Origin: Eunapius fragilis
Taxonomy: Eukaryota; Porifera; Demospongiae; Spongillida; Spongillidae
DNA length: 64,000 bases
NCBI GenBank assembly: GCA_963681505.1
Contig: OY811986.1
Location: 4,710,423-4,774,422 of the forward strand
Direction of reading: 5' to 3'
Shown: positions 3,885 through 44,900 of the stretch, piece by piece
How the letters are laid out: the number at the start of each line of letters is the position of its first letter
Position numbering within the stretch: the stretch's first letter is position 1
Program-made: the position numbers and the translations under genes
The notes under the pieces: model-generated
What the model saw: the letters and a program-made list of their open reading frames with translations, nothing else
Databases searched by the model: none
What the model was told of the DNA's origin: nothing

Positions 3885-6800
3885 TCAAGAACTAGATTCT
3901 ATGAGCTGATTGTGAGATATTATGCCATCGGAGGAGGATTGATCACTCTTCACACTACAGGACATAAGCTTCTCCTGCAAAATAAATAAGTACATAAATA
4001 ACCACACTGGTGCAGTGCAGTCTGGTTACCTTGAGCATTGAATTTTCTTATCTTAGCTCCAAATTTATGACCTGTGTCAGGTCTGCATCTGACTGAGCAT
4101 TTTCCGGTGGTGTTTTTAAGCATTCATCTGTGGCTCTGGCTCCCTGCACACCAATGTTTTGACCAGGTTCAGAGTTAAAAGATGCGCCCTCAGGGTCTTT
4201 GTATAGGAGATACATCTGAAAGGAAAATGTTACGATTGTCTAGACTGTAAAATAAAATGTTTAAGTCATTTATTTAGTGGAAATGGCTGAACAGCTAGAT
4301 TGCATTAAACTTATACCTTTGGTACAAAGGTCAGGGCTAGGAATGCAGTTGTCAGAATCATTATTCCAAGTGTGAAGATGGCTCCAAATGTATTGAGATA
4401 AGTGTCAAGAACAAAAGCACCCACAATTAAGATCACAAGTACAAGACTTGAAGTGTAAATTATTGCGGCAACATGGATTGAGTCATTCAATCCTGGGACT
4501 TTGACCTTCCTTGTCTGAAATGCCAACATGATGCCAACAATTTGGAGTATGCCAAGATAAGTATAAATTAAGATTCTCCAGTAGAAGGCAGGAGTAGATG
4601 AAGCGTAGCATATCCAGATGAAATATTCTTCCTTGATACCGAGGTTCTGAAGACAGAGAGGTCTGGTTATAGACTCATCCAAAACAGTATCAGACATACA
4701 GCAATTCCACTGGGGTTTTCCAGGCTCTTTTCCTTCACCATATGCCCTCTCAGCTGAGGAACAGCACTTCCAAATATGAGGAGTATAACACCAATGCAGG
4801 TTATGCTCAGTGCAGCTATTATCAAGTACGAATCCTTGACTACCTACAACAGAAAGAAATTACTGAATGATTACATTGGTAAATAACTAGTAAACCCACA
4901 TTTTTCTTAGCAGTTGGATTTTGGAAAATGTAGTATATCCTCCACATCTTTGCAAGTACTGATCCAAAACACAATGCATAACCTACCACAAATAACCACT
5001 CCCTCAGCTGTGTGTAGAGATAATGTGACATCGGTTTCATTATTTTCATCATCCATACCACACATGTGCCTCCTATCCCACTGATATCTGTGATTGGAAG
5101 AATGTAAATATAAATGGAACTGTACATAGAGACTGCTCCTAGAATGATGATATAATTTACGTTGGGACTGGAGCGTTTTATCACTCTGTATGTTGGGAGA
5201 AATCTGCATCATGGTGGCATTCCCCAAATCATATCTTTTCCTACCTCTGTTTCCTGAAATATATATTGAAGACAAGACACACAGCTGCAAATACAATGCC
5301 ACATGCTGCTAAGATGTACACGATAAAAACTAATGGAACGGCTGATGACAGAGTAACTTCCACTGGTGAACCATCTGGTGGTATTCCATCTGCCAATGAA
5401 TTAAAACAACACAATGCATGCCCAGTAACATTGCAATTGGCTGCTAACTTGGATATATTATTAGGTCAGAGAAGCCAGACTCAAACCTAAATGTGTAGTT
5501 TTCCAGATCATTGAAGTGTGCAAATTGTGATTTTGTTAGATTTCCGTAATCTTAATAAACAATATGAGCAATGTCAGAGGAATTCGATAGAAATCACGTA
5601 CGCTCAAATCTGTATTGCTTCAGTCTCAGTATGTGCTGAATGCATGTTCCATTTGAATCAAATTGGATATTTCCCTGTCAAAGGCACCATCCATAAATTA
5701 CTCATGCACTAAGTTTACATGTTACTAACTTACTGAGACTCCTGAAAAGTTAGTTATTTGAATGTTGTATTGGATCAGACATCCCATCTTTTCATTTGAG
5801 TACTGGAACTGTTCCAGTGGTACCAGTGAACCAGAGGTGTTCTCACATCCTGTTCCATTGATGTTACCACTCTTCACCATGGCCATAGTACGGTTCAGGG
5901 CAATAGCTAATATCCACACAGCATCATACATCCTCCCTCCACTATCGGTTGGATTGTATCTGCCTTGAAGAGCCAACCGTCTGTATTCATCTTGAAACTG
6001 TTGAGGAGTCTGGAAATAAAAATAATTTTGTAATGCATATGCACGCATGTGTGTCAATGTGCGAATGTGTGTGAACATGTTCTGCATCCATACGTACATT
6101 CATTTGGAAGCGTATTTTCAAATGAGGTGACATTGCAATTGTATTGCAATAGAAAGCGTATCAAATGGTTATTTTTAGATTGTTGAATTCACTTGTTTAC
6201 TAAATACTATGACCATCATGAAATTTCACTTGCACATGATCTAATATTGATTAACTACTATGACACATGTGCATAGACTGTGTGAAGGTATGCAGCATGT
6301 TGTTGAAATCGAGATTTTAAAACATGCAGGACTGTTAAGTAGCACAGGTACTTGGACTGAACAAACTAAATTCATTTGCGTTAATCAAAGCCTTTAGATA
6401 TACATTTGTTCCTGCTTGCAAAGGTGAAACATATAAAGCACACTTAGCTGTACTGGAGAATGTGTTAATATATTCTAGCCTGATGGCATTACATAAAATT
6501 ATACATTCTTGAAGGCTGTTGAATCCACATAAGAAACACTTACAATTCCAGTATCAGTGTAAACAGTGTTGGATTCTGGTGATAGGTATCTCTGTAGGAC
6601 AAGTGTTTTCTCCAAGAATATTTCCAGCTCTTGGTCTGTGCAGCTGATGTTGCCTCCATCAACAGCTGCTGTCCACCAGTTATCGACGTACCAATCAGGG
6701 AGTATCCAGGCATAATTGGGGTAGGTATAACCTCGCTTGCTGGCCTGTGGATATGTTCCCACATGCATGCATAACAGCAACTTGTCTATTCGTATACATG

Positions 6801-9800
6801 AGACTTCCATTGCAGTTTACCTCACATATCATTTTTCTTGCCGGTCCAGAGTAGCAATTGAGGTAAAAGATTCTGTAGTCATCGTTCTCAGTAAGCTGAG
6901 AATTTAAGTTTTAAGTGTTAAGGTATAGCATGGTACTCATTACTTCTTGGAACTCACACTCATAAAGATGGCTTTAAACATTGCTACAGGATCATCAGAT
7001 GTTTTGAATGTTATACTTCCGAGTGTGTAGTTAACTTGAGACAATGCCACCTGAAGGTTGGTCTTACCCTGTTGGTTTTTGAACAGTTCCATGCACAGCA
7101 TATATGCATTCATATGTACATGTATATGCACATATCAAGTAGATGTGTAAACTGAGAGTTTGCATCTTAACTGGTGTTAGCTCTGGCCTACTTTGTAGGG
7201 TATCTTTTGTGTGTTCATCAAATAATAAAACTTTTTAATGTGCTAATTAACTTGTTTTCAATGTTAAGTTTGAAAGAGTGTGGCTACATAATGGATACGT
7301 GGGACTTTAAGCACATGCTGAAAGAACTGAATATTGCCTTTAGAGTGGTATATTTTGTCAAGGTAAATTTTAACATAGTAGATAATTAAAAACCTAGCTC
7401 AATTTCACATGTGTATTAGTTCAAATGAAACAATTATATTAGTGTTACATGTATTATAAGCTTTCCACAAGAGATCTTAATACCATAATAACAAAATACT
7501 TTGCTAAACATTTCAAAAGTGATACAATGTCACACACTTACATTAGTGAAGAGGGCTTCATTCTGTGTAATAGAGAAGAACCTCTTCCAACCAAAATGCT
7601 TCATAAGACTGAGAAACGCTGGTGGGTCCAGTGAATTGGAGGGTATGTTCCTAAAGAATCTCTTGTACCTGCTTCTGTCACTAAGGACTGCACTTCCAGA
7701 AAAGTATGCTATCTGTATGTATATATGGTTGTGCCAGTGACAGTCATGCATGCAACAGGCAGGCTCTGCATTTATGCTAATCCTTCGTCATATTATATCC
7801 ATCGGGTACTTATCTCCAGGTACGCGCGTCAAATTCGGTACATATATCTAGGAGTTCTTTAGCTATTGGACAGTCCATATTGATGACTTCCATTACGTAG
7901 ACATTGCATGCCGTGCAAAATGAGTGCATGCTTTCCCGCTCGATTCGTGCTAACGATTAAACTAACCATGAATATTCGGGAGGCGTGTGCATGCATACAT
8001 CATTGGCGCATCAAGCGGCTAACTTTACATAGCTGTATCCGCATAACGGATAACATTCAAGTCGACGATCTGAGCAATTACATAGCTACAGGTACCGAAT
8101 TTGACGCTCACGTACCTTGAGATACGTCGAATTGTAACCAGTCGGTTGGTGAACTTTGTAGTTTGTACCCACAGTAACGAAAATAGCTAACTTTAACAAA
8201 AAAACACCAAATTTAGTAAGAGAAAAATGGTGTGGAAACATGGGTACGACATTTGAAAGGAAAGCGCTGTAGGATTGCGAATTGGGAAGATATATCGATT
8301 TATGATAAAATTATAACCCCCCAAAAGTTGATTCTGCTAGACACAGTCCTATATATATTTTTATAATAATTGTAGGGTTTGGGCGCTTTGTACTTACGGC
8401 AGAGAAAATAGCTAGACCCCCAAAATCGTTTTAATAGAAGGGGGAAGACATGTACGAGATTAAGCGTTGTACAGCTGCGAGGTATGTATATACTACAATT
8501 TTTTATGCGTAATCCCAGAAGGACGATTTTGCTGGACACTAGCTGTCCCATAATTATAAATTTAATTGTGAGTTGGACAGTCATCATCTCATATGCCATG
8601 CAACATAAGTACTTTTATTGAAGCGCAGCGGTGTTTTTTTCATATGCTTGTACTAATAAAGTAATAATGTACTTCTTGTTCCAATTCCATATTTAAAGAA
8701 GTGTTCCTTACCTGTGATATGTTCCAATGGTGGCTGATGGCAGCTACAGGCTCAGTAGCTACAGAACATCCACATCCAATCATAGCAAGCTTCACTGGTG
8801 CGCTTTGGATCCCTTGAAAGAAGGCATCCAGAGATCTGTCATATTGGCACTAAGCAGTGAGATGGTACAAAGATATGACCAATAATTACCCCCATTTTCC
8901 ATCCACAACTCTAATATTAGGTTAGATACTGGATCTATTTAGAATCGTCGAGGCCCTGGGCTGTAGCAGCCGAGGGGTTTCTATGTCACGTATATCCCGC
9001 TAAAGCGCTGAAATACACCCCCATATTCCCGCCATATTTGATAAGCTCTGAAACGGTCTGCGCTGAGCCACAAGTAATAACTCACACCTTGTGCATTGAT
9101 GGTTTCGTGTATAGCTTTGGTCGAGTGTTTTGAAAAGCCTTTTTTCCCTCATTATGTCGTACTACAAGTAAGATTATATGGCTCGCAAAACTGGTGCCGT
9201 TTAATGAGACATGTAACTAAAAACATTCTCTACGAGAAAGTTGGTGGTATACAGGATTTGAAGGCAATAGTGGTGTAAAAAGCAAGAAAACAAGGTAATT
9301 TTAAAAATCACTGAAATCACTGTGAATATTATGTATCGCTGCTTCCCCATCAGCACGAGCGAATGATGTAATCCGTAGATCTGGTGGGTCCAAACTATCG
9401 GAGAGCGAAGTTAACTCTTTGACGTCGCTCGATCAAAACGGCTCCTGAAATCATGCCCGTCCTGATTCTAAAACATCGTCTCGAGTTTGAGGTATTTCGC
9501 ACGTCGTTTCGCTTTATTCTTTCTCTGCATGACGTGAAGGCATTTCGAGAAAAACAATTGCACTGACAAATAGGTTTCACACACCAAACGACGATTAAAG
9601 CATCAAAGAGTTTACCACATTTATTTTGATACCTTAATTAATATCCAGCGGCAAACACCCGTGAGGAGGGGGGGGGGGGGGGGGGGGGGGGGATCTCAGT
9701 GTGCCGGGTATGATTTCATGTACTTAGAATTAATCATTCTGCTTTCCCAACTAACCAATCAGATTGAGTGAATCGCATCAGATATAAATCATAGTAAACA

Positions 9801-11070
9801 ATTTGATGAGATGTAATATAAGCTGGGGTCTCTCATCTGAAGCGCTCAATAGGCAACGTTATCATAAAAAACGGACAACTTGTGATAATGATATTTTGAC
9901 TACATGCATCAGTGTACTGAACACTGAATCAGATAAGCTGTTGTGTACTCTCAAGTTACGAAATCTTAATTGCTAGGTCAATAATCTGAGTAGGTACCTT
10001 AGCGCCGCCATGCAAATCAAGGGACCATATTATTATCTGATGCATAGTTACGTTTCAATTCTCCGTTCGCAAGAATTAACACACTTCGGATTTCGGAAGG
10101 CCATGCGTACATGAGTGCATGCTTCATATATATATACCTCACCGCCGAAGTCGCCGCAACAACACTAAATGCACATTCATGGAATACTAAGCCGGGATGA
10201 TATACTATAATGCGTTCCGGGATCAGCGATTCATAATAGTAAGATAATTGACGCCTTCTACCGATGCCAAGCACATGCATTCACGAGCTGACGTTGCTGC
10301 GAACTTTACATGGACATATATAAACCCATTGCATGCACAGGCTGCACGCTTAATTTAATAAATATATAGGGCTACATTCGATCGATAAAACAATTAACTC
10401 TTAGCGCTCACTATACAATTGCATTAATTTGCATATCAGTCAGCAATAGTGCTGTTAGGTTAGACACCACTACAGGTTATTTTTACACTTATATGCAACT
10501 ATACAGTTTGGGGTTTGGTTTGTTGTGTCACTAAAGTACAGTTGTACGAGCATGTAGCTGCTCTGTAAGCTGCGTCATCAGTAAATAATGCCACGATCGC
10601 CATATAAGTACATAGCGTTTCCCGGCGGTCATATATCCGAGTGATGAAAAGGGTCTATGTACATATATACCGAGCCGGTCAAATGATGAATGCATGCAAC
10701 ATGATGGGATGCTGCATGCGTGCTTGCGGCATTTATATTTATATTACGTTTAAGCAGTGCTTCTAACAGCGATGGCTACATATATATGACTCGCCCGATG
10801 AAAGCTCACCTGCGAGTTCCTAACGACGTCATAATTCAGCACGTAGCCAGGGAGGAGTGAGGAGCGGTTGTTAATGTCCCTGACGGCCATCTCCGCCGCG
10901 GGAATCACGCCAGAGGAGTTGAGACCATACTCACCGAAGGACGTGATAAACATGAAGCTGAGAGTGTAATTTGGACTGCCTTCTACCAGTCCATAGACTG
11001 GAAGTAAAAGTAGATAGTAAACGTTCATTTTGGCTAATTTTCTCCCCGAGTTGTGTCGCATATCTGCCAA
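3885..11070 (-). CDS. Metabotropic GABA-B-type receptor, copy 1 (15 exons)
   Basis: Class C GPCR predicted to sit in the plasma membrane and bind an amino-acid-like ligand. Exons (5' to 3'): 11070-10810, 8849-8712, 7712-7542, 7068-6958, 6895-6821, 6744-6544, 6009-5734, 5674-5602, 5550-5449, 5389-5245, 5203-4900, 4843-4700, 4646-4317, 4215-4030, 3974-3885; phases agree throughout. A hydrophobic signal stretch (MNVYYLLLLPVYGLVEG; M15 may be the true start) precedes a Venus-flytrap domain (residues about 20-470) with VIPAAEMAVRDIN, AMIGCGCSVATEP and LSDRSRYKRFFRNIPS. Seven membrane segments follow (about 480-777: RSSPNVNYIIILGAV, WRIYYIF, GIMLAFQTRKV). An in-frame TAA at 4048-4050 ends the protein at about 832 residues, before the tail that copy 2 retains, so coiled-coil pairing may be lost. 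Intron 1 is 2 kb and holds element debris; several others are 41-66 bp. Ligand unknown. Confidence 0.85.
7900..8560. repeat. Decayed TIR-element debris inside receptor intron 2
   Basis: Two outward-facing ends, near 8325-8350 (TTCTGCTAGACACAGTCC) and 8530-8556 (GCTGGACACTAGCTGTCCCA), resemble the ends of the 264-bp element at 30637-30900. Between 7915 and 8110, stretches such as TTTCCCGCTCGATTCG and ACGGATAACAT resemble the outer arm of the 12-kb palindrome (near 31260-31310). It is probably an old relative of those elements. No coding capacity. Confidence 0.45.
8850..10809. other. Intron 1 of GABA-B-like copy 1, with repeats
   Basis: Non-coding. It contains one arm of foldback family F (about 9218-9295) and a run of 25 G at 9668-9692. 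The left half of a 36-bp inverted repeat lies at 10384-10419. No further exon with a consistent phase was found. Confidence 0.6.
9218..9295 (+). repeat. Single arm of foldback family F
   Basis: AACATTCTCTACGAGAAAG, then GTTGGTGG, GGTGTAAAAAG and AAAACAAGG match the outer 80-90 bp of the three full foldback copies. No partner arm is found nearby, so this is a half element or a decayed copy. Confidence 0.65.
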
Positions 11071-29998: not shown

Positions 29999-32900
29999 TC
30001 AGTTCTTGTGCATGTTGTAAAGACGTGAAGCAACAGCTACCACAGTGGCTGCGCCGCGCCCAGACCCATCTTTTGATCTCTTGAGCTGCACTTTATTTCC
30101 AGGTGCCAACTCTTGCAAAGTGGAAATCATTCTAGAAAGTGCGACAGCCATCATGTGACATCACGTGACATATACATGTACATGACCATCATGTGACATC
30201 ACGCGACATATACATGAGACATGTACATGACCATCATGTGACATATAAATGAGACATGTACATAACCATCATGTGACATCACGTGACGTATAAATGAGAC
30301 TGTACATAACCATCATTGTTCACGACACATACCGTATCGCTTATAAGCCGCCTTTGCCCCGATCAAAAAAAAAGGTTCATGTTTGAAAGCTCACGGACGT
30401 GCATCATTGTTTCATAATCATGTACAAATACCATTTTATTTCCTGATACCTATACATATATAGTAAACAAATTTGTGATGGTAACAGAGTTGCACATGTT
30501 TAAACATGAACCGTTTTTTGTTGTTGTTGTTGGGGGTGGGGGGGAACGGGGTTATAAACGGTACCTTACGGTATACATGAGACATGCACATAACCCTTGC
30601 ATGTGTACATGCATAGCCCCCACCATGCTACATATATATATATGGGACAGTGTCCAGCAGAATCACCCTTCTGGCTAGTTTTTCAAGTTTTCAAATTTTT
30701 TGATTTTCCTGGAACACCAATGAGCTTCTGTCAAATGGTCCTTACGCATCCTAAATCGGACTCTCCATCAGAAAGTTATTCGGCACTGAATTTATAATTA
30801 GCCATGCATTTCAATGCGAGCGTTACTTTTCTTTTGCTTGTTCAAGAAATTTTGAAAAAGTACCATAAGGGTGATTCTGCTGGACACTGTCCCATATATA
30901 TAATTATAATTATGTATATTATATATATATATATGGGAAAGTTTCCGAGAAAAGGGACCTAGCGTGTATTATAATAAAGCATAATAAAAATGCATTACGT
31001 TTGAAATGCTATAACTTCCGAACGGTTAACGCTATCGTCTTCCTATTTTCAGCACTTCATACTATACCATTTCTCTATTGTAAAATACATTTTGGGATCT
31101 TGAACATGCTCCATGCCAGTATCGCGATGTCCGATACCCCAAGGGGTTCAAACCCGCCATAACTTTCGGCAGGAGTAATCAAATCGCTCCAAATTCGGTT
31201 TGTCGGTAGAGAGGTCCTGCAGCTATTGATTTGTTCTGTTCGTTAATTTTTATGTTATCCGTTGCGGAGATACAGCTGTGCAAAGTAAGTACAAGTTTCC
31301 CGCTCGAATCGCGCCGTTGTATCTGCGCGAACCGATTCCATTCACCGATGTATACATGAATATTCAACTACATCCACCCACCATCACTGTGACGCAATGT
31401 AAGTTGTCTGGGGACCTGAATAATTTGCTTTGCGCCTGTGATTTCGAAGACGAAGATCAAAGAAGTTTGAGAGCGGTAGCGGTAACTAGCTGTGGAGCAC
31501 CGCAGACGAGTTCCCGTAGTGGACAGCTGTGGAGTATGGCAGACAGTGGAGTAACTACATGCAGTACGCAGCTACTATACTACGGCATACAGCAGTGGAA
31601 TGAGCACCGCAGCAGACGGCATGGAGTAACCCTAAGGCAGGCAGCTATGCAATGGACCCTATGGCAGAAAATACGACAGAGGATAAGTATAACTGTGAAA
31701 CAAAACCAGGCAGAGCTGTGGAATGGACTCCAGCAGTAAACAGCTGTAGAGATGGCAGGCAGATAGGTGTGTCCAGAAGACAGTGGAACAACTACAAACG
31801 AGTGTGGAGTAGACCAAATAGTAGACAATACATGTAGGTAGTGGACATCAACACTGCACCATGGAATAGACTCTACTGCAGATATCTACCTGAATACTGT
31901 ATCGAGTGAACCCTACTGAGTGGACCCTGTGGCAGACATCTACTGTAAATGGACATCTACTGTATGAAGTGGACCCTATACTGCAGACCCAGTGGACAGA
32001 CATCGACGATAATGAGTGGACCAGCATACGGCAGGCAAACAGCTGTGGAGTGGCCCATATGGCAGAACCACACAGCAATGACATATGTGAAGCAGACAGA
32101 CATGTGTCTAACTTATAGCAAGCAGCTGTGGAGTGACACTACTGCAAAAAGCCATAATGTGACCCCTATGCCAGATACATGCACATGTACAGCTATGACC
32201 CCTCCACCCTACCTCCCGCACTGCACCCTACACCCATTCCTTACAGTGAACAGTGTTAGCGATGGAGTGGACTCTCTTTTGAGTGGACTCCACCCACCCT
32301 ACAGCTACATGAACAGTGTCAGCCATGGAGCAGGCCCTCTTTTAAGTTAGCTATTGAGTGGACTCCACCCTACCCCTGTGCTGCACCCTAAACACATGCA
32401 CACACAACACGTACACGCATGCACTTGTACACAGCACCTATGCACTGCCATGTGTGCTCAACTTGTTTCTTCATTCCGTCAACAGGACTGTTTAGAACAG
32501 GAGTGATTGCAGGTTTTCCCTGCCTTAAAGCCTACCTACACCCAGTGGACTGCACCTTCGTACATGTACGTGTACGTACACAGTCATTTGCTAGTAGTTT
32601 GTTATACATCTAGTTGTGCAGCTGTGCACACAGTACAATGTACGTTTATCATGTCCCCATAGGATTGAACCTCTACACGTGCATGCTTCTTGTCTCCACA
32701 CATACATGCGCACAACACTTGTACACACAGCACTTGTACACAGTTTCGCTGCACCTATGCACTGCCATGTGTGCTCAACTTGTTTCTTCATTCCGTCAAC
32801 AGGACTGTTTAGAACAGGAGTGATTGCAGGTTTTCCCTGCCTTAAAGCCTACCTACACCCAGTGGACTGCACCTTCGTACATGTACGTGTACCTACACAG

Positions 32901-35900
32901 TCATTTCCTAGTAGTTTGTTATACATCTAGTTGTGCAGCTGTGCACACAGTACAATGTACGTTTATCATGTCCCCATAGGATTGAACCTCTACACGTGCA
33001 TGCTTCTTGTCTCCACACATACATGCGCACAACACTTGTACACACAGCACTTACTTGTACACAGTTTCGCTGCACCTATGCACTGCCATGTGTGCTCAAC
33101 TTGTTTCTTCATTCCGTCAACAGGACTGTTTAGAACAGGAGTGATTGCAGGTTTTCCCTGCCTTAAAGCCTACCTACACCCAGTGGACTGCACCTTCGTA
33201 CATGTACGTGTACCTACACAGTCATTTCCTAGTAGTTTGTTATACATCTAGTTGTGCAGCTGTGCACACAGTACAATGTACGTTTATCATGTCCCCATAG
33301 GATTGAACCTCTACACGTGCATGCTTCTTGTCTCCACACATACATGCGCACAACACTTGTACACACAGCACTTACTTGTACACAGTTTCGCTGCACCTAT
33401 GCACTGCCATGTGTGCTCAACTTGTTTCTTCATTCCGTCAACAGGACTGTTTAGAACAGGAGTGATTGCAGGTTTTCCCTGCCTTAAAGCCTACCTACAC
33501 CCAGTGGACTGCACCTTCGTACATGTACGTGTACTTACACAGTCATTTCCTAGTAGTTTGTTATACATCTAGTTGTGCAGCTGTGCACACAGTACAATGT
33601 ACGTTTATCATGTCCCCATAGGATTGAACCTCTACACGTGCATGCTTCTTGTCTCCACACATACATGCGCACAACACTTGTACACACAGCACTTGTACAC
33701 AGTTTCGCTGCACCTATGCACTGCCATGTGTGCTCAACTTGTTTCTTCATTCCGTCAACAGGACTGTTTAGAACAGGAGTGATTGCAGGTTTTCCCTGCC
33801 TTAAAGCCTACCTACACCCAGTGGACTGCACCTTCGTACATGTACGTGTACGTACACAGTCATTTGCTAGTGGTTTGCTACACATGTATTGGTACGTGTA
33901 CATGCATACATGTAGTAGCATGCATTCAGCTGACAGTTCTCATTTTTCCTCTCTAAATACTATTCCTATGTTCACCTTGAATTTTCTTTAGCTGTTTCTA
34001 TGTGCACACATTAGTGTCTTGTGATTGGTCCTCTGTGCATAGAAATAGTGGTTACGGTTACATGTACATGTAGTTGTTCCATGGCAAGGACACAGTGCTC
34101 GATTTACTGAAGTGTCATATCATGAGCATTATGTTTGTCCTCAAAGTACATGTATGTTGCTCCTTACAACTGGTCCTCTGCCACGTTCCCATATGATGGT
34201 GCTTCCTAATGTGTCACCAATGTGTGTTTGTAAAATGTTGTCAAACTTGTACATATACCCCCTACAAAAGTCAAAGGAATATTGCATTTGTGTATTCAAG
34301 TAGGGGTAACTAGACCGATTCTGCAATTCATCCATCTTCACCCCTTGTCTACAAAGAGCACGCCATAGAAGTGTGGCTTTATCAATATTGGTATTGTAGG
34401 CCTCTCGTAACACTTTAGCTTCAGTTATATGCTGAATGTAGCTTGTGTTGATCCTAATTCTTTCACCCTCGCTTAGGCTGTGTCGTAATGACACTAAAGC
34501 CATATCGCAAACATCGCACAGATCACTTTTGCTGGGACAGAATTTTATATTGCTGCAAAACCTGTGCCATAAATGAGTAAATGCAATGTAGCTGACACAT
34601 CTATATTGCTGTTCTGTAGATGCTGCTGGAGTAGGTGACTCTGATTGAGTAGTAGTATGCACAAGTGTGTATAGCCTTCTTTTTTCGGTCAGTGTTGTTA
34701 GATTTTGCACCTTTGATGGCTGAGTTGGTGGGGATGCTTGGATTTGTATTGCCTGGCAATATTTGTTATACACTTCTCTCATAGTGACATTGCTCTCGAG
34801 CACATAATCTCGTATCGGTCCCTTTAGGCGTCCAGGGTCTGGGAGACCATTCGTTGCTGCATACTTTCGTATGAAATTCACTACAATGCTCTTATCCCGT
34901 AGTGACAATGCATGGTGAGGAATTTTTTTACTGTTACCATGCGTTTGAGGTACTACATCATTTTTTGAAAAGGATTTTTGCAATAACTTCATAGTTTTAA
35001 CTTTGAAACCAGTTACAGCACAGAATGCTGAATAGCAAATCCGAGAAGTCCAGTCAAGGCAATAGTTGAAAGATCTTCGAGATCGTTCACCACGGGAAAC
35101 AAATTCAGACTCAACATGGATCATAGCCAGCATCCCTAATATCACTGCCTTCTTTGTAGCCTTCCTTAGTTGGGACATTGCATAAGCACGCTTTGTAGCC
35201 AAATCTTTGTACTTAATCAGGCAATTACTACTACAGCACCCTCCATTTTTTAAGTACTCACGAAGCAAACTGCTGAGCCTACCTGGTCTGTGTGAGTTTC
35301 GCTGGTCATTATCATTATCATCTACTTCGGCATTTTCATTTTCATCATCATCACCACCATCATCATCATCACCATCATCACCATCATCAGACTTGTGGTC
35401 ATCATTCTGCTCATCACTATCATGACCCTCATCAACTTGCAGATGTTCATAATCCATGTCAACCTCATCATTTTCCTGGTCATCACTATCATTCTCATTG
35501 GCCTCTTCAGGACCATCACTTTCATTTTCACAACCCACGTCAGGACCATCACTTTCGTTTTCACAAACCGCTTCGTCTTCACAGTCCTCGTCAATTGCAT
35601 CGCTATCAGTCTGAAAATCATAAACACCACTGCCCTGTTCTTTGGCACTGTAGAACTCGGATTCCATCGGTCGGAAGGGTTTTTGCATTTTCAAGAGCGT
35701 AACAGGTTGCTATTATTATGAATTGGAATTGAAATGGCTCTGCAGACAAAGGTCTTCGAAACTAAGAACGGCGAAAATATAGAAAAGAAACGTATGTGAT
35801 TAATATTCAGAACGTGCGGATATTTATAGCCATAACGCATCGCATATAATTGAAACTCCTGCATGTATAGCCGCTATGAGTCTGACAGCAATAATAAGGG

Positions 35901-38900
35901 AAGGAAAACAGCTTCTGGACACAGCGATGGAGCAGGCAATCCAATATCTTGAAGAGAACGAGTGTAAGCGCATATACAGTTTCATGCGTGCATGCTGCTC
36001 AATTACTATGCTCAAGCCCTCAAACAAAACCTACAAGATGAGAAGAGTAGAAACAAGGAATTCAAAGAAAAAATTGCGAACTTAGAAGCGATTATATCAA
36101 AGTTAGTTTGAATACTACATGTAGTGATCAATAGTATCGCATGGGCATGGCTGTACTTCCATGTAGGCAAAAGGTCGAAATCGAACGTACCAAGGAAGCC
36201 TTATATCTGACCTCCACCCCAATGATTCCCACTACGAGTACTGAATCTCAATGTGAACCAATATCCCCTATCATTGGTAGTGCTCAGTAGGGTAGGTTAT
36301 TGTAGTAGCAGGTACAGTGGTCTTAGTAATGATACCATGCATAACCAGGTTGGAGTTATTCATCACAAATGCAATGAGCTTGAGGTCTGGGAAGGATCAC
36401 AGGAGCTCCTGAATACAGATGATGAAGAGTTAAACCCAGAGAAAACTGTAGTAGAGGAAACCGACCTGGAGGATACAGATGTCAACATGCCAGAAAATAA
36501 GTAAGTGCATGGACTAGCATGTGAGATCATTCAGCAAAAGCAATACTTTTTACGGCATGATATTGCTGCATTAATTGCAGGAACACAAACCAAACAAATA
36601 AAAGAGTAAAGGGTCCTAGTTACAAGTACTTGGTCCCTATCAGAAAAAAAAAAGATCGCGACAAGCTGAATGCCAAACCTTGCCATGATTGTGAAAAGGT
36701 ACTGTTTAAAATGTTGTATACTCAAAAGCTTTAACACTTAGTTCCAATGCAGTGGTTTGCATCAGGAGCCGGTGGTATACACAAAGATCAAAGAGAACAT
36801 CTCAGGAGTGTGTGCAGACACAAGCATCTTCACCTACCACCTGACAGTGACCCTCGTGTGTGGGACATTAGTTTTCCTGACAGTGAAGAGTGTGAGCGCA
36901 TCATGGCTTTGTAGATCTGTCGTATTATCTTAACACCGCGTCCACGAGTAAAGTGGGTGAAAACGGCCAAAATTTGGGGGAGGTTTAAAATATAAAAGGT
37001 CCGCTGATTAACATTTTTCTTTTCTGACGCAGGATACTATTACTACAACTCTTGAGACAACATTTGATGCGTTCAGTGAGAGGACCATTGGTCTGCCGCA
37101 TGCTATCAACGAGCTGGCAAGTGACCGGTCGACATCAGTGGCATCCGATGTTTTGCTCGTCCAAAATGTTCCAAAAGTGCATAGTATATGAATTGAAATG
37201 AAACTGTGACTTTAGGATTGTCATTTGTGTAGAAAATCGTTTTACAAGCAAACCGTTGTATGTATCGGGGTGGACTCTATACTTTAGCGCTAGCGCGGCT
37301 GGTTAGTGAATAGGAGCGCCCAACATGTACTTCATGTAAATCAATCCATACTATACAATAAAAGTCCACTAGTCACTGTACCAGTGTTGGCTGCGAATGC
37401 ACTACTTCCCTATAGTCACTGGAACCAGGCTAGCTGTACACAATGTCGCGAGGCAAACTATTCAGTTCGATAAAATAGCATATCGGTCTACACACCATGC
37501 ATTGATAACGATAATAAAAATTTACTAAATGTTTGCTTTCTCTCTGACTTTTCTTTTTCTTTTTAGACTACTAACTTTGGTTTTGATTGCTTTGTCGTGT
37601 TCAAAGGGATGTGGTAGGCAAAGTGCAACCTTGAGATTTCTCAAGTAATTGAACTTGAGCTTTGTGAAAGTCTGGCGCATCTAACCACTGCTGCAAGAAC
37701 GCTTTGAACCATCGTACTCCATCCTGAACCACCTGATTCCTTTAGCAACACTTCACCTTTCCTCAAATCTTCGTTAGGCAGCTTCTTCTTGGTTGCTTGG
37801 CTCCATCCAAACGCTTGCCATAGATCATGCACTGTTTCTACCTGTTTAATAGATGGCTCCGTCCCAATGGTTCGCTCCTCTTGCTCTGTTGCCTTTGCAA
37901 TCTCAATTCTAGCCCTTTTCGCTGCATCTTGTTGCTCGCTGCCGGTCGATAGTCGCTTCGGACCACGTTGCCCAGAACTCCGAGCAAGCGCCACTCTAGG
38001 CTCTACCCCATCACAAGCACATCCGCATCTTTTGCATGCGCTGCCACACAATGGACATGATCCAACTTTGCATTTGCAACGATGAGGCTGTTCTGCAGAA
38101 TCCATTGATCCCGTAGATTAACTATTGGTGGTTAGTTAACTGCAGTATTTGGACTGGTCCCATCAGCTTCATCGCAATTGTTTGGAGAATTGGCATTTGT
38201 TTAAAGGATAAAAACGTGATTTTTATTTCTAGCACAAGTAAGTACGTGATCGGGAAGTGTTTTAGTATTCGTATTAGCATTCAAAATCCACTTTATACAT
38301 GCCTTTTTGAGTACCGAACCGCATTATTAAAAGTATGTACATCTCTTCTACAACACATCCATTTGGTACAGGATAGATTCTTAGTATAATTCAATAGGTT
38401 CTTGTACTAGAATTTCATATAGTGGTTACGACTGCATTACTAGCGGACCTTTTTTTTTTTTAAATGCCCCCAAATGGTGACCCAGATTACTCGTGGATGC
38501 GGTGTTAAATACAACATACATGTACGATTTTGAAAGTAACAGCAGCCAATTACACAGAGGGACCACAACATTTATGACAGGAAGTGATCATGTGACATAA
38601 ACACACCATCATAAACACAACCTCAGTCTCAGTTAGCTCTAGTTGTTGCTAGATGACGATTCGTCTTTGATAGCACATTCAGACACATAAGCACACAGTT
38701 GGTCACAACTGTAAAAGTGTGAGATAAAGGTATACATGTAAAGGTATGCTCTACACATACATCCAGCTACAAAACAGATAGTTGTGCCAAAAGGCATCCA
38801 CAGATACTATTGTGCCAAAAGAGACCCTGTAAGGTACATGTATACACAACACCTGCCTGGGTTATCTTATCTTGATAGGCATGGCCTAATCAATTTTGCT

Positions 38901-41900
38901 TATGTAAACTCATCCTTAGGGGGTATATGTACAAGTTTGACAACATTTTACAAACACACATTGGTGACACATTAGGAAGCACCATCATATGGGAACGTGG
39001 CAGAGGACCAGTTGTAAGGAGCAACATACATGTACTTTGAGGACAAACATAATGCTCATGATATGACACTTCAGTAAATCGAGCACTGTGTCCTTGCCAT
39101 GGAACAACTACATGTACATGTAACCGTAACCACTATTTCTATGCACAGAGGACCAATCACAAGACACTAATGTGTGCACATAGAAACAGCTAAAGAAAAT
39201 TCAAGGTGAACATAGGAATAGTATTTAGAGAGGAAAAATGAGAACTGTCAGCTGAATGCATGCTACTACATGTATGCATGTACACGTACCAATACATGTG
39301 TAGCAAACCACTAGCAAATGACTGTGTACGTACACGTACATGTACGAAGGTGCAGTCCACTGGGTGTAGGTAGGCTTTAAGGCAGGGAAAACCTGCAATC
39401 ACTCCTGTTCTAAACAGTCCTGTTGACGGAATGAAGAAACAAGTTGAGCACACATGGCAGTGCATAGGTGCAGCAAAACTGTGTACAAGTGCTGTGTGTA
39501 CAAGTGTTGTGCGCATGTATGTGTGGAGACAAGAAGCATGCACGTGTAGAGGTTCAATCCTATGGGGACATGATAAACGTACATTGTACTGTGTGCACAG
39601 CTGCACAACTAGATGTATAACAAACTACTAGGAAATGACTGTGTAAGTACACGTACATGTACGAAGGTGCAGTCCACTGGGTGTAGGTAGGCTTTAAGGC
39701 AGGGAAAACCTGCAATCACTCCTGTTCTAAACAGTCCTGTTGACGGAATGAAGAAACAAGTTGAGCACACATGGCAGTGCATAGGTGCAGCGAAACTGTG
39801 TACAAGTAAGTGCTGTGTGTACAAGTGTTGTGCGCATGTATGTGTGGAGACAAGAAGCATGCACGTGTAGAGGTTCAATCCTATGGGGACATGATAAACG
39901 TACATTGTACTGTGTGCACAGCTGCACAACTAGATGTATAACAAACTACTAGGAAATGACTGTGTAGGTACACGTACATGTACGAAGGTGCAGTCCACTG
40001 GGTGTAGGTAGGCTTTAAGGCAGGGAAAACCTGCAATCACTCCTGTTCTAAACAGTCCTGTTGACGGAATGAAGAAACAAGTTGAGCACACATGGCAGTG
40101 CATAGGTGCAGCAAAACTGTGTACAAGTGCTGTGTGTACAAGTGTTGTGCGCATGTATGTGTGGAGACAAGAAGCATGCACGTGTAGAGGTTCAATCCTA
40201 TGGGGACATGATAAACGTACATTGTACTGTGTGCACAGCTGCACAACTAGATGTATAACAAACTACTAGGAAATGACTGTGTAAGTACACGTACATGTAC
40301 GAAGGTGCAGTCCACTGGGTGTAGGTAGGCTTTAAGGCAGGGAAAACCTGCAATCACTCCTGTTCTAAACAGTCCTGTTGACGGAATGAAGAAACAAGTT
40401 GAGCACACATGGCAGTGCATAGGTGCAGCGAAACTGTGTACAAGTAAGTGCTGTGTGTACAAGTGTTGTGCGCATGTATGTGTGGAGACAAGAAGCATGC
40501 ACGTGTAGAGGTTCAATCCTATGGGGACATGATAAACGTACATTGTACTGTGTGCACAGCTGCACAACTAGATGTATAACAAACTACTAGGAAATGACTG
40601 TGTAGGTACACGTACATGTACGAAGGTGCAGTCCACTGGGTGTAGGTAGGCTTTAAGGCAGGGAAAACCTGCAATCACTCCTGTTCTAAACAGTCCTGTT
40701 GACGGAATGAAGAAACAAGTTGAGCACACATGGCAGTGCATAGGTGCAGCGAAACTGTGTACAAGTAAGTGCTGTGTGTACAAGTGTTGTGCGCATGTAT
40801 GTGTGGAGACAAGAAGCATGCACGTGTAGAGGTTCAATCCTATGGGGACATGATAAACGTACATTGTACTGTGTGCACAGCTGCACAACTAGATGTATAA
40901 CAAACTACTAGGAAATGACTGTGTAGGTACACGTACATGTACGAAGGTGCAGTCCACTGGGTGTAGGTAGGCTTTAAGGCAGGGAAAACCTGCAATCACT
41001 CCTGTTCTAAACAGTCCTGTTGACGGAATGAAGAAACAAGTTGAGCACACATGGCAGTGCATAGGTGCAGCGAAACTGTGTACAAGTGCTGTGTGTACAA
41101 GTGTTGTGCGCATGTATGTGTGGAGACAAGAAGCATGCACGTGTAGAGGTTCAATCCTATGGGGACATGATAAACGTACATTGTACTGTGTGCACAGCTG
41201 CACAACTAGATGTATAACAAACTACTAGCAAATGACTGTGTACGTACACGTACATGTACGAAGGTGCAGTCCACTGGGTGTAGGTAGGCTTTAAGGCAGG
41301 GAAAACCTGCAATCACTCCTGTTCTAAACAGTCCTGTTGACGGAATGAAGAAACAAGTTGAGCACACATGGCAGTGCATAGGTGCTGTGTACAAGTGCAT
41401 GCGTGTACGTGTTGTGTGTGCATGTGTTTAGGGTGCAGCACAGGGGTAGGGTGGAGTCCACTCAATAGCTAACTTAAAAGAGGGCCTGCTCCATGGCTGA
41501 CACTGTTCATGTAGCTGTAGGGTGGGTGGAGTCCACTCAAAAGAGAGTCCACTCCATCGCTAACACTGTTCACTGTAAGGAATGGGTGTAGGGTGCAGTG
41601 CGGGAGGTAGGGTGGAGGGGTCATAGCTGTACATGTGCATGTATCTGGCATAGGGGTCACATTATGGCTTTTTGCAGTAGTGTCACTCCACAGCTGCTTG
41701 CTATAAGTTAGACACATGTCTGTCTGCTTCACATATGTCATTGCTGTGTGGTTCTGCCATATGGGCCACTCCACAGCTGTTTGCCTGCCGTATGCTGGTC
41801 CACTCATTATCGTCGATGTCTGTCCACTGGGTCTGCAGTATAGGGTCCACTTCATACAGTAGATGTCCATTTACAGTAGATGTCTGCCACAGGGTCCACT

Positions 41901-44900
41901 CAGTAGGGTTCACTCGATACAGTATTCAGGTAGATATCTGCAGTAGAGTCTATTCCATGGTGCAGTGTTGATGTCCACTACCTACATGTATTGTCTACTA
42001 TTTGGTCTACTCCACACTCGTTTGTAGTTGTTCCACTGTCTTCTGGACACACCTATCTGCCTGCCATCTCTACAGCTGTTTACTGCTGGAGTCCATTCCA
42101 CAGCTCTGCCTGGTTTTGTTTCACAGTTATACTTATCCTCTGTCGTATTTTCTGCCATAGGGTCCATTGCATAGCTGCCTGCCTTAGGGTTACTCCATGC
42201 CGTCTGCTGCGGTGCTCATTCCACTGCTGTATGCCGTAGTATAGTAGCTGCGTACTGCATGTAGTTACTCCACTGTCTGCCATACTCCACAGCTGTCCAC
42301 TACGGGAACTCGTCTGCGGTGCTCCACAGCTAGTTACCGCTACCGCTCTCAAACTTCTTTGATCTTCGTCTTCGAAATCACAGGCGCAAAGCAAATTATT
42401 CAGGTCCCCAGACAACTTACATTGCGTCACAGTGATGGTGGGTGGATGTAGTTGAATATTCATGTATACATCGGTGAATGGAATCGGTTCGCGCAGATAC
42501 AACGGCGCGATTCGAGCGGGAAACTTGTACTTACTTTGCACAGCTGTATCTCCGCAACGGATAACATAAAAATTAACGAACAGAACAAATCAATAGCTGC
42601 AGGACCTCTCTACCGACAAACCGAATTTGGAGCGATTTGATTACTCCTGCCGAAAGTTATGGCGGGTTTGAACCCCTTGGGGTATCGGACATCGCGATAC
42701 TGGCATGGAGCATGTTCAAGATCCCAAAATGTATTTTACAATAGAGAAATGGTATAGTATGAAGTGCTGAAAATAGGAAGACGATAGCGTTAACCGTTCG
42801 GAAGTTATAGCATTTCAAACGTAATGCATTTTTATTATGCTTTATTATAATACACGCTAGGTCCCTTTTCTCGGAAACTTTCCCATATATCTGAACCTGC
42901 GTCAGCAGGTTCAATATAGGATTGATTGAGGAATGATGAATGTCATTAAAAATTTTAAATCGCGTCGGGAGAGACAACGGAGAAACGGATCACTTATCTC
43001 GTTGCAGCAATCGAACGACAGCACCAAGATCTACGTTTTAATGCTAGTTTCATGTCATTAAACTATGCGCTTCCAGACAAACAAAGAACCTGCTTCTCGT
43101 GCCCATTCCCAAAAAAATTGTTCGTCGTCGTCGTCTTCCTTAGGAAGGTATAACTCGAGCTACGAACGGTTTTAAAGAACGACAATAGTACCAATCTCTT
43201 CAGAATTTACCGGCACGTTATCCTAGCATGTCATTTGGACACATATCACATCTAGAAAGTAACTACAGCGAGAAATACCCTATTTTGTTGCAAGTTCTAT
43301 GGCCATCTAGCAAGTTCTAGCAAGTTCTTAATAAAATGTATAATTTTAGGGAGTATAAATACTCCAACAGGCACTAGATTTATTTGGTGTTCCTATCGCA
43401 GTTTAGTCGTTACCTTACTTTGGCTAGTGAAGTTGTTTTTCTAAAAATGCCTTCGCGTAATCAAAAGAAGAGATCTAAGCAACGAGCGGAATACCTCCAA
43501 AAACGAGAAGATATTTTATCACAAGAGAACAAGGCTAAAGCCCGAGCGCGCTACAAGGCCGACCCTGAAAAGAAGAAGGCCTCTGTACGCGACACCTACA
43601 ACGCAAATGCTGTATCTAAGCGTACTGCTAAAAGGCAGCGATATCAAGAGGGCGTCGAGGAGAACCGTGCTGCTAAAAGGCAGCGATATCAAGAGGGCGT
43701 CGAGGAGAACCGTGCTGCTAAAAGGCAGCGATATCAAGAGGGCGTCGAGGAGAACCGTGCTGCTAAAAGGCAGGGATATCAAGAGGGCGTCGAGGAGAAC
43801 CGTGCTGCTAAAAGGCAGCGATATCAAGAGGGCGTCGAGGAGAACCGTGCTGCTAAAAGGCAGCGATATCAAGAGGGCGTCGAGGAGAACCGTGCTGCTA
43901 AAAGGCGGATATACAGGGGCAATTCAGCTACCATTAAGGCAGCTAGAAGGAGTCGGTATTGGAAGGGTCGTAGAACTACCACTACCACCCAAAGGTATGT
44001 TATAGCATGCTGTATGTAGCATTTAAAATCTAAGGGCTGCTTTGCACGTGGCTCATGGCTTCCCTGTCATGCACACATTAACACATTTCTTGTATGCCTG
44101 CATACCGTATTATCAGATGTACAGTAAGGCTTCCCAGTTTCCTTGTACACGTAAAGGTCAATGTTTGTACAAAAGGTATTTGTGCATGCATCTGTGTCTG
44201 TACATTATTGTACAAGATATAAAAATTTAATTAAAATAAAATTGGTGATGTAGGATTTGTAGACAGCAATTGAGTAAAAAGTAAGAAAACAAGGAATTAC
44301 GGATATTAGGCATTCATTTAATTATAAATATTACAGACCTACATTTAGCACAGAATTTCAAGGAGGTAGATTTGCTAAATAATGTAGGTCTGTAATATTT
44401 ATAATTAAATGAATGCCTAATATCCGTAATTCCTTGTTTTCTTACTTTTTACTCAATTGCTGTCTACAAATCCTACATCACCAATTTTATTTTAATTAAA
44501 TTTTTATATCTTGTTTCACACATTTTTATGCTAGGCGCTGTACATGTAAGCCGGGATCCGCCTGTGGTAATAATAAACATGTATTATATCAGAGATACAT
44601 GTATTGAATAATCGTGCCGTGTAATGCAAGATTACTTCGCATGGCGAGGAAGTATTCATCCCTGCGCAATCACATGCATGCTCTTAACTAAACTGTTTTA
44701 ACTTGGTCGGAAGATCGATACGGCGCAATCGGTAGCCCTGCTATATAGCATTCAAAAAACATTAGTTGTAATTATAAATTTATAATAAAGTATACGGCCG
44801 AGCTCCGAGAGGCCCCCAGTACGGATGGGGCCATATTCCCCATGGGGCTGGGGCCAGCGGTGGCGCAGGTGGGAGCAGCGGAGCAGGGGCCAGCGGTGGA

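Follow-up and report, generated by a model that had tools for sequence, protein, structure and literature searches.

Sola2 transposons, including Sola2-Fanzor1, are described in the excerpts of PMC3627910 as having AT-rich 4-bp target-site duplications (TSDs; AWWT, ATAT, AAAT and ATTT), terminal inverted repeats (TIRs) of 12-21 bp and a transposase of 888 aa; Sola2-Fanzor1 also carries a second protein gene, Fanzor1. Galileo (P superfamily) and Foldback elements are described in the excerpts of PMC4168063 as having very long TIRs that grow by tandem repeats and also lengthen by recruiting internal sequence, and some copies consist of TIRs without the transposase segment.

The element analyzed here lies in a window of 64,000 nucleotides (the whole stretch of DNA examined) from the sponge Eunapius fragilis. 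Its TSDs are AT-rich, 4 bp long and consistent with Sola2, although one target, ACAT, falls outside AWWT. The transposase (851 aa) resembles that of Sola2 in length, and the second protein gene encodes a CtIP/Sae2-like protein in the place of Fanzor1. Whereas Sola2 TIRs are short, the arms of the sponge element are kilobases long (11 of 15 elements have terminal inverted matches of 1.7-3.0 kb). Like Galileo and Foldback TIRs, the arms hold tandem arrays, and the family likewise includes copies without a transposase. It differs from Galileo in its DUF7869 transposase and 4-bp TSD, and no CtIP-like gene is mentioned for Galileo in the excerpts of PMC4168063. No P-type transposase match was found among the Pfam families listed.

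Mobile elements that encode helper proteins are known, such as plant Helitrons with RPA, phage Mu with Gam and VANDAL elements with an anti-silencing factor; to our knowledge no resection factor of the CtIP/Sae2 type is among them. CtIP is the cell's own aid in the repair of broken DNA, and copy gain by cut-and-paste transposons depends on how the host mends the break left at the donor site. Among the matches listed in the literature searched, which took in few subscription journals, no transposon with a CtIP/Sae2 gene was found, nor any mention of DUF7869.

Structure of the window copy and of its complete relatives

The element proper spans 30935-42884 of the window (11,950 bp). Its features are as follows.

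30931..30934, no strand: left TSD, ATAT (4-bp duplications are seen on other copies)
30935..34264, + strand: left inverted arm, ~3.3 kb; outer 392 bp conserved family-wide
32434..33877: 321-bp tandem array of the left arm, 4.5 copies (element coordinates 1504-2947)
34264..35709, - strand: transposase ORF, 5' portion only (residues 1-482; 851 in the relative), truncated by an internal deletion at ~34264
35689..35875: interval between the two start codons (first ATG in the transposase frame, CtIP-like ATG), ~187 bp; presumed shared promoter
35876..35963, + strand: CtIP-like exon 1, presumed oligomerisation segment
36017..36101, + strand: CtIP-like exon 2
36167..36500, + strand: CtIP-like exon 3, frameshifted in the window copy
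36581..36698, + strand: CtIP-like exon 4, CHDC motif; start of the C-terminal region
36753..36914, + strand: CtIP-like exon 5, SAE2 C-terminus with CRHK, assigned to the RHR position of human CtIP
36934..38504: nested unrelated transposon, TTAA on both sides, holding ORF 37641-38117 (- strand)
38917..42884, - strand: right inverted arm, ~4.0 kb; arm-derived sequence starts again at 38509
39304..41385: 321-bp tandem array of the right arm, 6.5 copies (element coordinates 8374-10455)
42885..42888, no strand: right TSD, ATAT

A reading of the window made beforehand from its sequence only (the sequence-only reading) had described near-identical inverted arms of about 3.3 and 4.0 kb around 4.65 kb, and these were recovered at 99.7-100% identity, with the innermost ends 4,652 nt apart. 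Two arm pairs, 30929-33893 with 39926-42890 (2,965 nt) and 33053-34264 with 38917-40128 (1,212 nt), were 100% complementary and gap-free, and a gapped alignment of the arms gave 99.7% over 2,962 nt. The left arm is the shorter because it holds fewer copies of the 321-bp unit. The 16-base end reported earlier consists of the 4-bp target (ATAT) followed by GGGAAAGTTTCC.

The two divergent genes that had been placed between the arms, transposase-like (ORF 34141-35709, minus strand) and CtIP/Sae2-like (exons from 35876 to 36914, plus strand), were both found, the latter with an SAE2 match above the cut-off. As a unit the pair is broken in the window copy, and part of the space between the arms belongs to the nested transposon. 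The window copy is a decayed derivative: the transposase carries a deletion, past which its open frame extends into the arm, to 34141; CtIP-like exon 3 is frameshifted and the final codons of exon 5 are altered; and the nested transposon has been inserted, its TTAA flanks lying at 36930-36933 and 38505-38508. In the relative at C9:3435537 the nested transposon is absent and a single TTAA stands at that point. An inverted duplication cutting the transposase was ruled out: compared with the C9 relative, the ORF has simply lost ~1.6 kb by internal deletion. ORF 37641-38117 was rejected as a component of the element, since it sits in a many-copy, TTAA-flanked nested transposon; a PDB sequence search with it returned one match, at chance level (E 0.13).

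The complete layout was found in two relatives (C9:3435537 and C23:1586647), where an ORF of 851 aa that contains a DUF7869 domain is divergent from a five-exon CtIP/Sae2-like gene of 261 aa. The DUF7869 (PF25273) match of the C9 relative scored 65.4 bits against a cut-off of 26; the window copy has no DUF7869 match, and its retained residues 1-482 lie upstream of the domain. The spacing between the two genes in the C9 relative is the same as in the window copy. The arms of the complete form start ~40 bp past the CtIP stop and ~100 bp past the transposase stop. The complete form is a DUF7869 transposase and a CtIP/Sae2-like gene, divergent, inside long arms that vary in their arrays. For a related transposase ORF of 891 aa, the 2.5 kb examined upstream of one copy showed no CtIP; the transposase family can therefore dispense with CtIP.

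Copies and mobility in the genome

A search for the end motif, as the sequence-only reading had proposed, found 79 places in the 219-Mb genome and none in the reversed control; 60 of the 79 ends formed 30 convergent pairs spaced 0.4-20.6 kb apart. Targets across copies were mostly ATAT, with AAAT, ATTT and ACAT also seen. Among seven examined pairs with a non-ATAT end, exact 4-bp AT-rich TSDs were present in five and mismatched in two. The insertion point of one relative has at least 40 paralogous empty sites. The suggestion of a mobile element was thus borne out by its many copies, duplications and empty sites: it represents a family of TIR-type DNA transposons inserting at AT-rich 4-bp targets. 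Two relatives have transposases 99.3% identical over 851 residues, and their CtIP coding sequences differ at 1 of 786 bases; the family is recently active and the window copy decayed. A small TIR element to the left, earlier likened to this one, does have a similar end and shares TATA-rich targets, but belongs to a separate high-copy family with 839 ends.

Fifteen elements were examined. The longest inverted match begins at the very ends in 11 of them, at 94-99.7% identity. Arrays of 317-323 bp occur in E0, E8, E12, E19 and E20, and 27-bp arrays in the remaining 10; in the four CtIP-bearing elements read the spacer separating the arms is 2.8-4.7 kb. Chance and misassembly were ruled out, the layout recurring on other contigs with differing array lengths. 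Neither the transposase nor the CtIP-like gene is present in 11 of the 15 elements, and arms therefore persist without a CtIP-like gene in cis.

The CtIP-like gene and its constraint

The two joined C-terminal exons matched SAE2 (PF08573) at 25.2 bits, and the relative's full 261-aa model barely cleared the cut-off (19.9 vs 19.8 bits). CtIP_N (PF10482) gave five matches in the genome, none above the cut-off, and the presumed host CtIP gave no match above it either. A PDB sequence search with the CtIP-like protein returned one match at chance level (E 0.78). The likeness to host CtIP/Sae2/Ctp1 lies in the C-terminal SAE2 region, with its CxxC and a basic motif at the RHR position; unlike host CtIP, the transposon gene encodes 261 aa, lies inside a transposon and has six close copies.

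The gene has four introns (53-80 bp) and occurs at six loci with at least 94% identity in the last exon, with the transposase or its remnant head to head with it at all six. That the element carries the gene, as had been claimed, is upheld: the CtIP-like gene belongs to the transposon family. The locus is not that of a single-copy host CtIP without arms, a distinct presumed host gene being found at C3:610521-611141. Exon 5 is ~74% identical between the two genes, and the last intron appears, from a reading of the sequences, to be in the same place. Diverged CtIP copies (C4, C12, C15, C9:9279 and C18) are degenerate and may lie outside this transposon.

The gene might be a passenger, that is, a host CtIP gene captured with its introns and without a role in transposition, the slow divergence of its exons reflecting recent spread from a source copy. 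This is unlikely, but deserves weight. For captured genes in plant transposons, pseudogenisation or loss is given as the most usual fate in the excerpts of PMC13317346, and the CtIP-like frame is open in three of the six copies and broken in three. Silent and replacement changes among close copies (5/7 in one pair, 3/8 in a second and 1/4 in a third) give ratios just mildly under neutral, or uninformative, and constraint at the protein level is weak among these copies. Against a mere passenger, GT-AG is preserved at all four introns in 6/6 copies, and in one pair of relatives exons diverged about three times less than introns (12/783, 1.5%, vs 12/243, 4.9%; P=0.005), with a smaller contrast in the other two copies (1.55 vs 2.38% and 0.64 vs 1.59%). 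The gene is, moreover, one of only two in a compact complete form, where it takes up all the room before the arm, and an IMAPK ending shared with related CtIP-like copies in two further degenerate groups suggests long retention. The dN/dS of exon 5 against diverged copies was 0.09-0.16, on only 27-33 silent sites that are near saturation, and the host-gene comparison takes in host evolution too.

Proposed role in repair of the donor break

With a movement gene and a CtIP-like gene side by side, this transposon may influence how its own breaks are repaired, and we infer that the CtIP-like protein takes part in transposition or in repair of the donor site. The full account, a TIR transposon whose CtIP-like protein steers donor-break repair to template copying, is judged about evenly balanced. 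Both genes would be expressed from the short divergent region, and the transposase would cleave at GGGAAAGTTTCC. The CtIP-like protein, predicted to combine the presumed N-terminal oligomerisation segment with the C-terminal SAE2 region and to lack the long middle of host CtIP, would act at the donor break and on the folded arms, recruiting or activating the MRE11-RAD50 of the host. Hairpins would then be clipped and resection begun, and the resected gap would be filled by copying a template still holding the element in place of end joining, which would lose the element copy. Human CtIP requires both its RHR motif, at the C-terminus, and tetramerisation through its N-terminus for DNA binding and bridging (PMC6344080, in excerpt). 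A reason why repair choice would benefit an element comes from C. elegans, where excised transposons are restored by homologous recombination, not end joining (PMC13148408, abstract). The general claim, that a DSB end-processing factor is encoded by a eukaryotic DNA transposon itself, with the CtIP-type protein and host MRE11-RAD50 acting on the donor break and palindromic arms to favour copy-back and make cut-and-paste effectively replicative, is advanced tentatively. If a resection factor is indeed carried by the element, transposon control of repair choice becomes directly testable; long palindromes and a palindrome-processing factor would be travelling together in one element, and a natural miniature CtIP would be at hand to study which parts suffice for MRE11-RAD50 activation.

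It is improbable that the short protein, without the middle of host CtIP, acts as a decoy that blocks host CtIP or MRE11-RAD50, letting the arms and cut ends escape clipping and resection. The transposon protein is apparently shorter than the presumed host CtIP, since upstream of the C-terminal exons of the host gene an acidic reading frame stays open for 140 aa or more, and human CtIP is tetrameric (PMC6344080, in excerpt), so mixed oligomers could poison the host protein. The C-terminal exon of the transposon gene is, however, among its least altered parts (0/165 sites between E12 and E20, 2/165 between E12 and C20), a pattern no less compatible with an active protein than with a blocking one. 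The comparable shortness of two active proteins, Sae2 of yeast and Ctp1 of fission yeast, also counts against a decoy.

That the protein serves only to bring the multi-kb palindromes safely through replication or to open hairpin ends that the transposase may make, leaving repair choice unaffected, is likewise improbable: inverted matches do run from the very ends in most elements and Mre11 nuclease processes short-loop hairpins (PMC11724301, in excerpt), but the spacers far exceed the hairpin loops of that description, which measure about 8 nt, and gene-free elements retain inverted arms too, though action in trans is possible.

Under the preferred account of steered donor-break repair, the window copy, without either function, would at best be mobilised in trans.

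Layout of complete and damaged copies

The element in the window (E0, 30935-42884; 11,950 bp) belongs to a family that is mobile, carries a transposase-like and a CtIP-like gene in a compact layout, and has been under some coding constraint. Minus-strand hexokinase-like motifs at about 54959-53007 and near 30067 flank E0 on both sides; an intron of this hexokinase-like gene is therefore its probable location. The near-identical inverted arms described in the sequence-only reading were recovered at 30929-33893/39926-42890 and 33053-34264/38917-40128; their innermost ends lie 4,652 nt apart, in agreement with the spacing of about 4.65 kb given there. The outer 2,962 nt of the arms were 99.7% identical in a gapped alignment, and 321-bp tandem units occur inside the arms in 4.5 and 6.5 copies.

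The complete layout was read from a related element, E12 (C9:3435537-3448464; C1-C24 are the contigs of the genome).

E12 6047-8599, minus strand: transposase, single ORF of 851 aa
E12 8766-9803, divergent to the transposase: CtIP-like gene, five predicted exons, 261 aa

The transposase matched DUF7869 at 65.4 bits (cut-off 26), with a C2H2 match under cut-off at its C-terminus. The five-exon model was predicted by eye from genomic sequence alone; its introns (53, 65, 80 and 54 bp) are all GT-AG. The first start codons of the two genes are about 187 bp apart. The left arm stops at 5944, about 100 bp past the transposase stop, and the right arm begins at 9845, about 40 bp past the CtIP stop. 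E19 (C23:1586647-1596714) has the same layout, with a transposase 99.3% identical and 1 of 786 CtIP-like coding bases different. In E20 (C7:9050706-9059207) the CtIP frame is open (262 aa) and the transposase lacks its N-terminal third.

Relative to E12, E0 has lost about 1.6 kb, covering the inner left arm and the 3' half of the transposase, and its transposase ORF consequently terminates within arm sequence. Its CtIP-like gene has a frameshift in exon 3 and altered final codons. Directly past the CtIP stop lies a second transposon.

36934-38504: nested transposon, 1,571 bp, TTAA on each side

E12 has one TTAA at this position. The nested transposon contains a cysteine-rich ORF of 158 aa, and 89 genome matches to it were listed, mostly partial, the longer ones at 83-100% identity.

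Family size, target duplications and empty sites

The genome (219 Mb, 24 contigs) was searched with the 16-base end, which comprises a 4-bp ATAT target and the start of the terminal inverted repeat; 54 exact matches were found (reversed control, 0). The 25-base inner end gave 79 matches at up to 2 mismatches (control, 0). Sixty of these ends formed 30 convergent pairs less than 25 kb apart, spanning 401-20,556 bp. The other 19 were without a partner; two of these lie 82 kb from each other, and for another (C7:9059183) the partner end is more divergent.

Fifteen elements were analyzed in full (E0, E1-E12, E19 and E20; E6 contains 5,000 Ns). The first 392 bp of E0 were 98-99% identical to E8 and E12, and 84-88% to the other ten of E1-E12. 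The longest inverted match begins at the element ends in 11 of the 15 (1.7-3.0 kb, 94-99.7%) and is internal in E2, E3, E4 and E7. Neither gene was detected by tblastn (E 0.01) in E1-E11, which are presumably mobilized in trans. E8 has a 317-bp array; the other ten gene-less elements consist of 23-66% tandem repeats, chiefly of 27 bp.

Since pairs found with an ATAT-containing pattern are uninformative on duplication, nine further pairs were examined. Seven had at least one end without a preceding ATAT: five matched (AAAT/AAAT twice, ACAT/ACAT twice, ATTT/ATTT once) and two did not (AAAT/ATAT, ATAT/GTAT). The remaining two were ATAT/ATAT. From the matching ends, the target-site duplication (TSD) is 4 bp and AT-rich. 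E4 and E12 are both inserted in copies of the same dispersed repeat. When the two flanks of E12 were joined, the resulting 244 bases had at least 40 contiguous genome matches at 85-96%, 34 of them full-length, a lower bound because 40 of 67 candidates were scored. Judged by their sequences, these are paralogous empty sites, although the duplication is unreadable there because the TATA run varies in length. The multiple ends, 4-bp duplications and empty sites bear out the earlier proposal that the unit is a mobile element.

The CtIP-like gene and its possible role

The assignment to CtIP/Sae2 held: the two C-terminal exons matched SAE2 with a score of 25.2 bits. For the complete 261-aa model the score was 19.9 bits, barely above the cut-off of 19.8, and no CtIP_N match exceeded its cut-off. 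According to PMC6344080, the RHR motif of human CtIP is required for DNA binding and bridging; in our reading, CRHK is its counterpart here.

Among 28 listed genome matches (exon pieces), six loci were at least 94% identical.

CtIP-like loci: window; C9:3445172; C23:1594056; C7:9053844; C9:7739118; C20:2880091

All six stand head to head with a transposase or its remnant, and exons 1-2 matched at E 1 or better only in the six transposon copies. The gene is thus not the single-copy host orthologue, the case that the sequence-only reading had set against mobility; the presumed host CtIP lies separately at C3:610521-611141. Its joined C-terminal exons scored 31.7 bits (SAE2) with open frames, and upstream of them, bounded by Ns, an acidic frame is open over at least 140 aa. 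As far as readable, the last intron position is common to this and the transposon gene. Six diverged loci have stops or broken exons: C4, C12 and C15, with common flanking sequence and no transposase found within 1.5 kb; C9:9279 and C18:3414, a second related pair; and C7:5306, similar to the presumed host gene. They hint at older transposon-borne lineages.

Between E12 and E20, 12 of 783 exon and 12 of 243 intron sites of the CtIP-like gene differ (P=0.005); for the same two elements, divergence is 3.2-3.4% in the outer arms and 2.05% in the transposase region. Pooling E20, C9:7739 and C20, which have a common history, gave 29/2345 for exons versus 22/747 for introns (P=0.003); singly, the other two copies gave 1.55 versus 2.38% and 0.64 versus 1.59%. 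Silent/replacement changes (E12-E20, 5/7; E12-C9:7739, 3/8; E12-C20, 1/4) are weak evidence of constraint taken alone. For exon 5, dN/dS of E12 against C4, C12, C15 and the presumed host CtIP was 0.09-0.16, based on 27-33 silent sites that are close to saturation.

The CtIP-like protein may work together with MRE11-RAD50 at breaks and arms of the element. The simplest gain from this would be donor-site repair by homologous recombination, restoring the element, as described for C. elegans transposons in PMC13148408. Alternatively, the protein could open hairpins formed by the arms or serve as a decoy, or the gene could be a passenger. Among the literature matches listed, with most subscription papers outside the search, there was no transposon with a CtIP/Sae2 gene. 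Sola2 elements, as described in PMC3627910, also carry additional proteins, and their TSDs and transposase length fit the present family; as the likeness rests on these two features and the arms here are far longer, the family was not filed as Sola2. Its arm growth resembles that described for Galileo in PMC4168063.

Related transposases and neighboring sequences

Searched with 201 aa of the transposase domain, the genome gave 69 matches, five of them equal-scoring.

DUF7869 ORFs, 891 aa: C3:742581, C6:4118655, C6:7668400, C6:7683525, C7:6758572
DUF7869 pieces on opposite strands, C1: 4267722/4268002, 18254131/18254429, 24135250/24135536, 24154780/24155075
DUF7869 pieces on opposite strands, elsewhere: C2:9733370/9733643, C4:4444003/4444289

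The proteins of the three 891-aa ORFs compared (C3:742581, C6:4118655, C6:7668400) were identical, suggesting that a related family has recently spread or been duplicated; no CtIP was found in the 2.5 kb upstream of the one copy examined. At several loci, two adjoining domain pieces are separated by about 100 bp and have opposite orientations, a rearranged form present in multiple copies.

30635-30902: small TIR element, about 270 bp, ends GGGACAGTGTCC at TATATA

As noted from the sequence, the small element's end is similar to that of E0, GGGAAAGTTTCC. Its 25-base ends occur 839 times in the genome at up to 1 mismatch (control, 0). In 5 of the 15 elements (E0, E3, E8, E9 and E11) a copy is located no more than 45 bp from an end, probably because both types of element favor TATA-rich targets. 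The window also holds an ORF of 213 aa with tandem peptide repeats of 19 protein letters (43378-44019) and an inverted repeat (44212-44514) whose 134-bp arms, reported to be 100% complementary, are separated by 35 bp.
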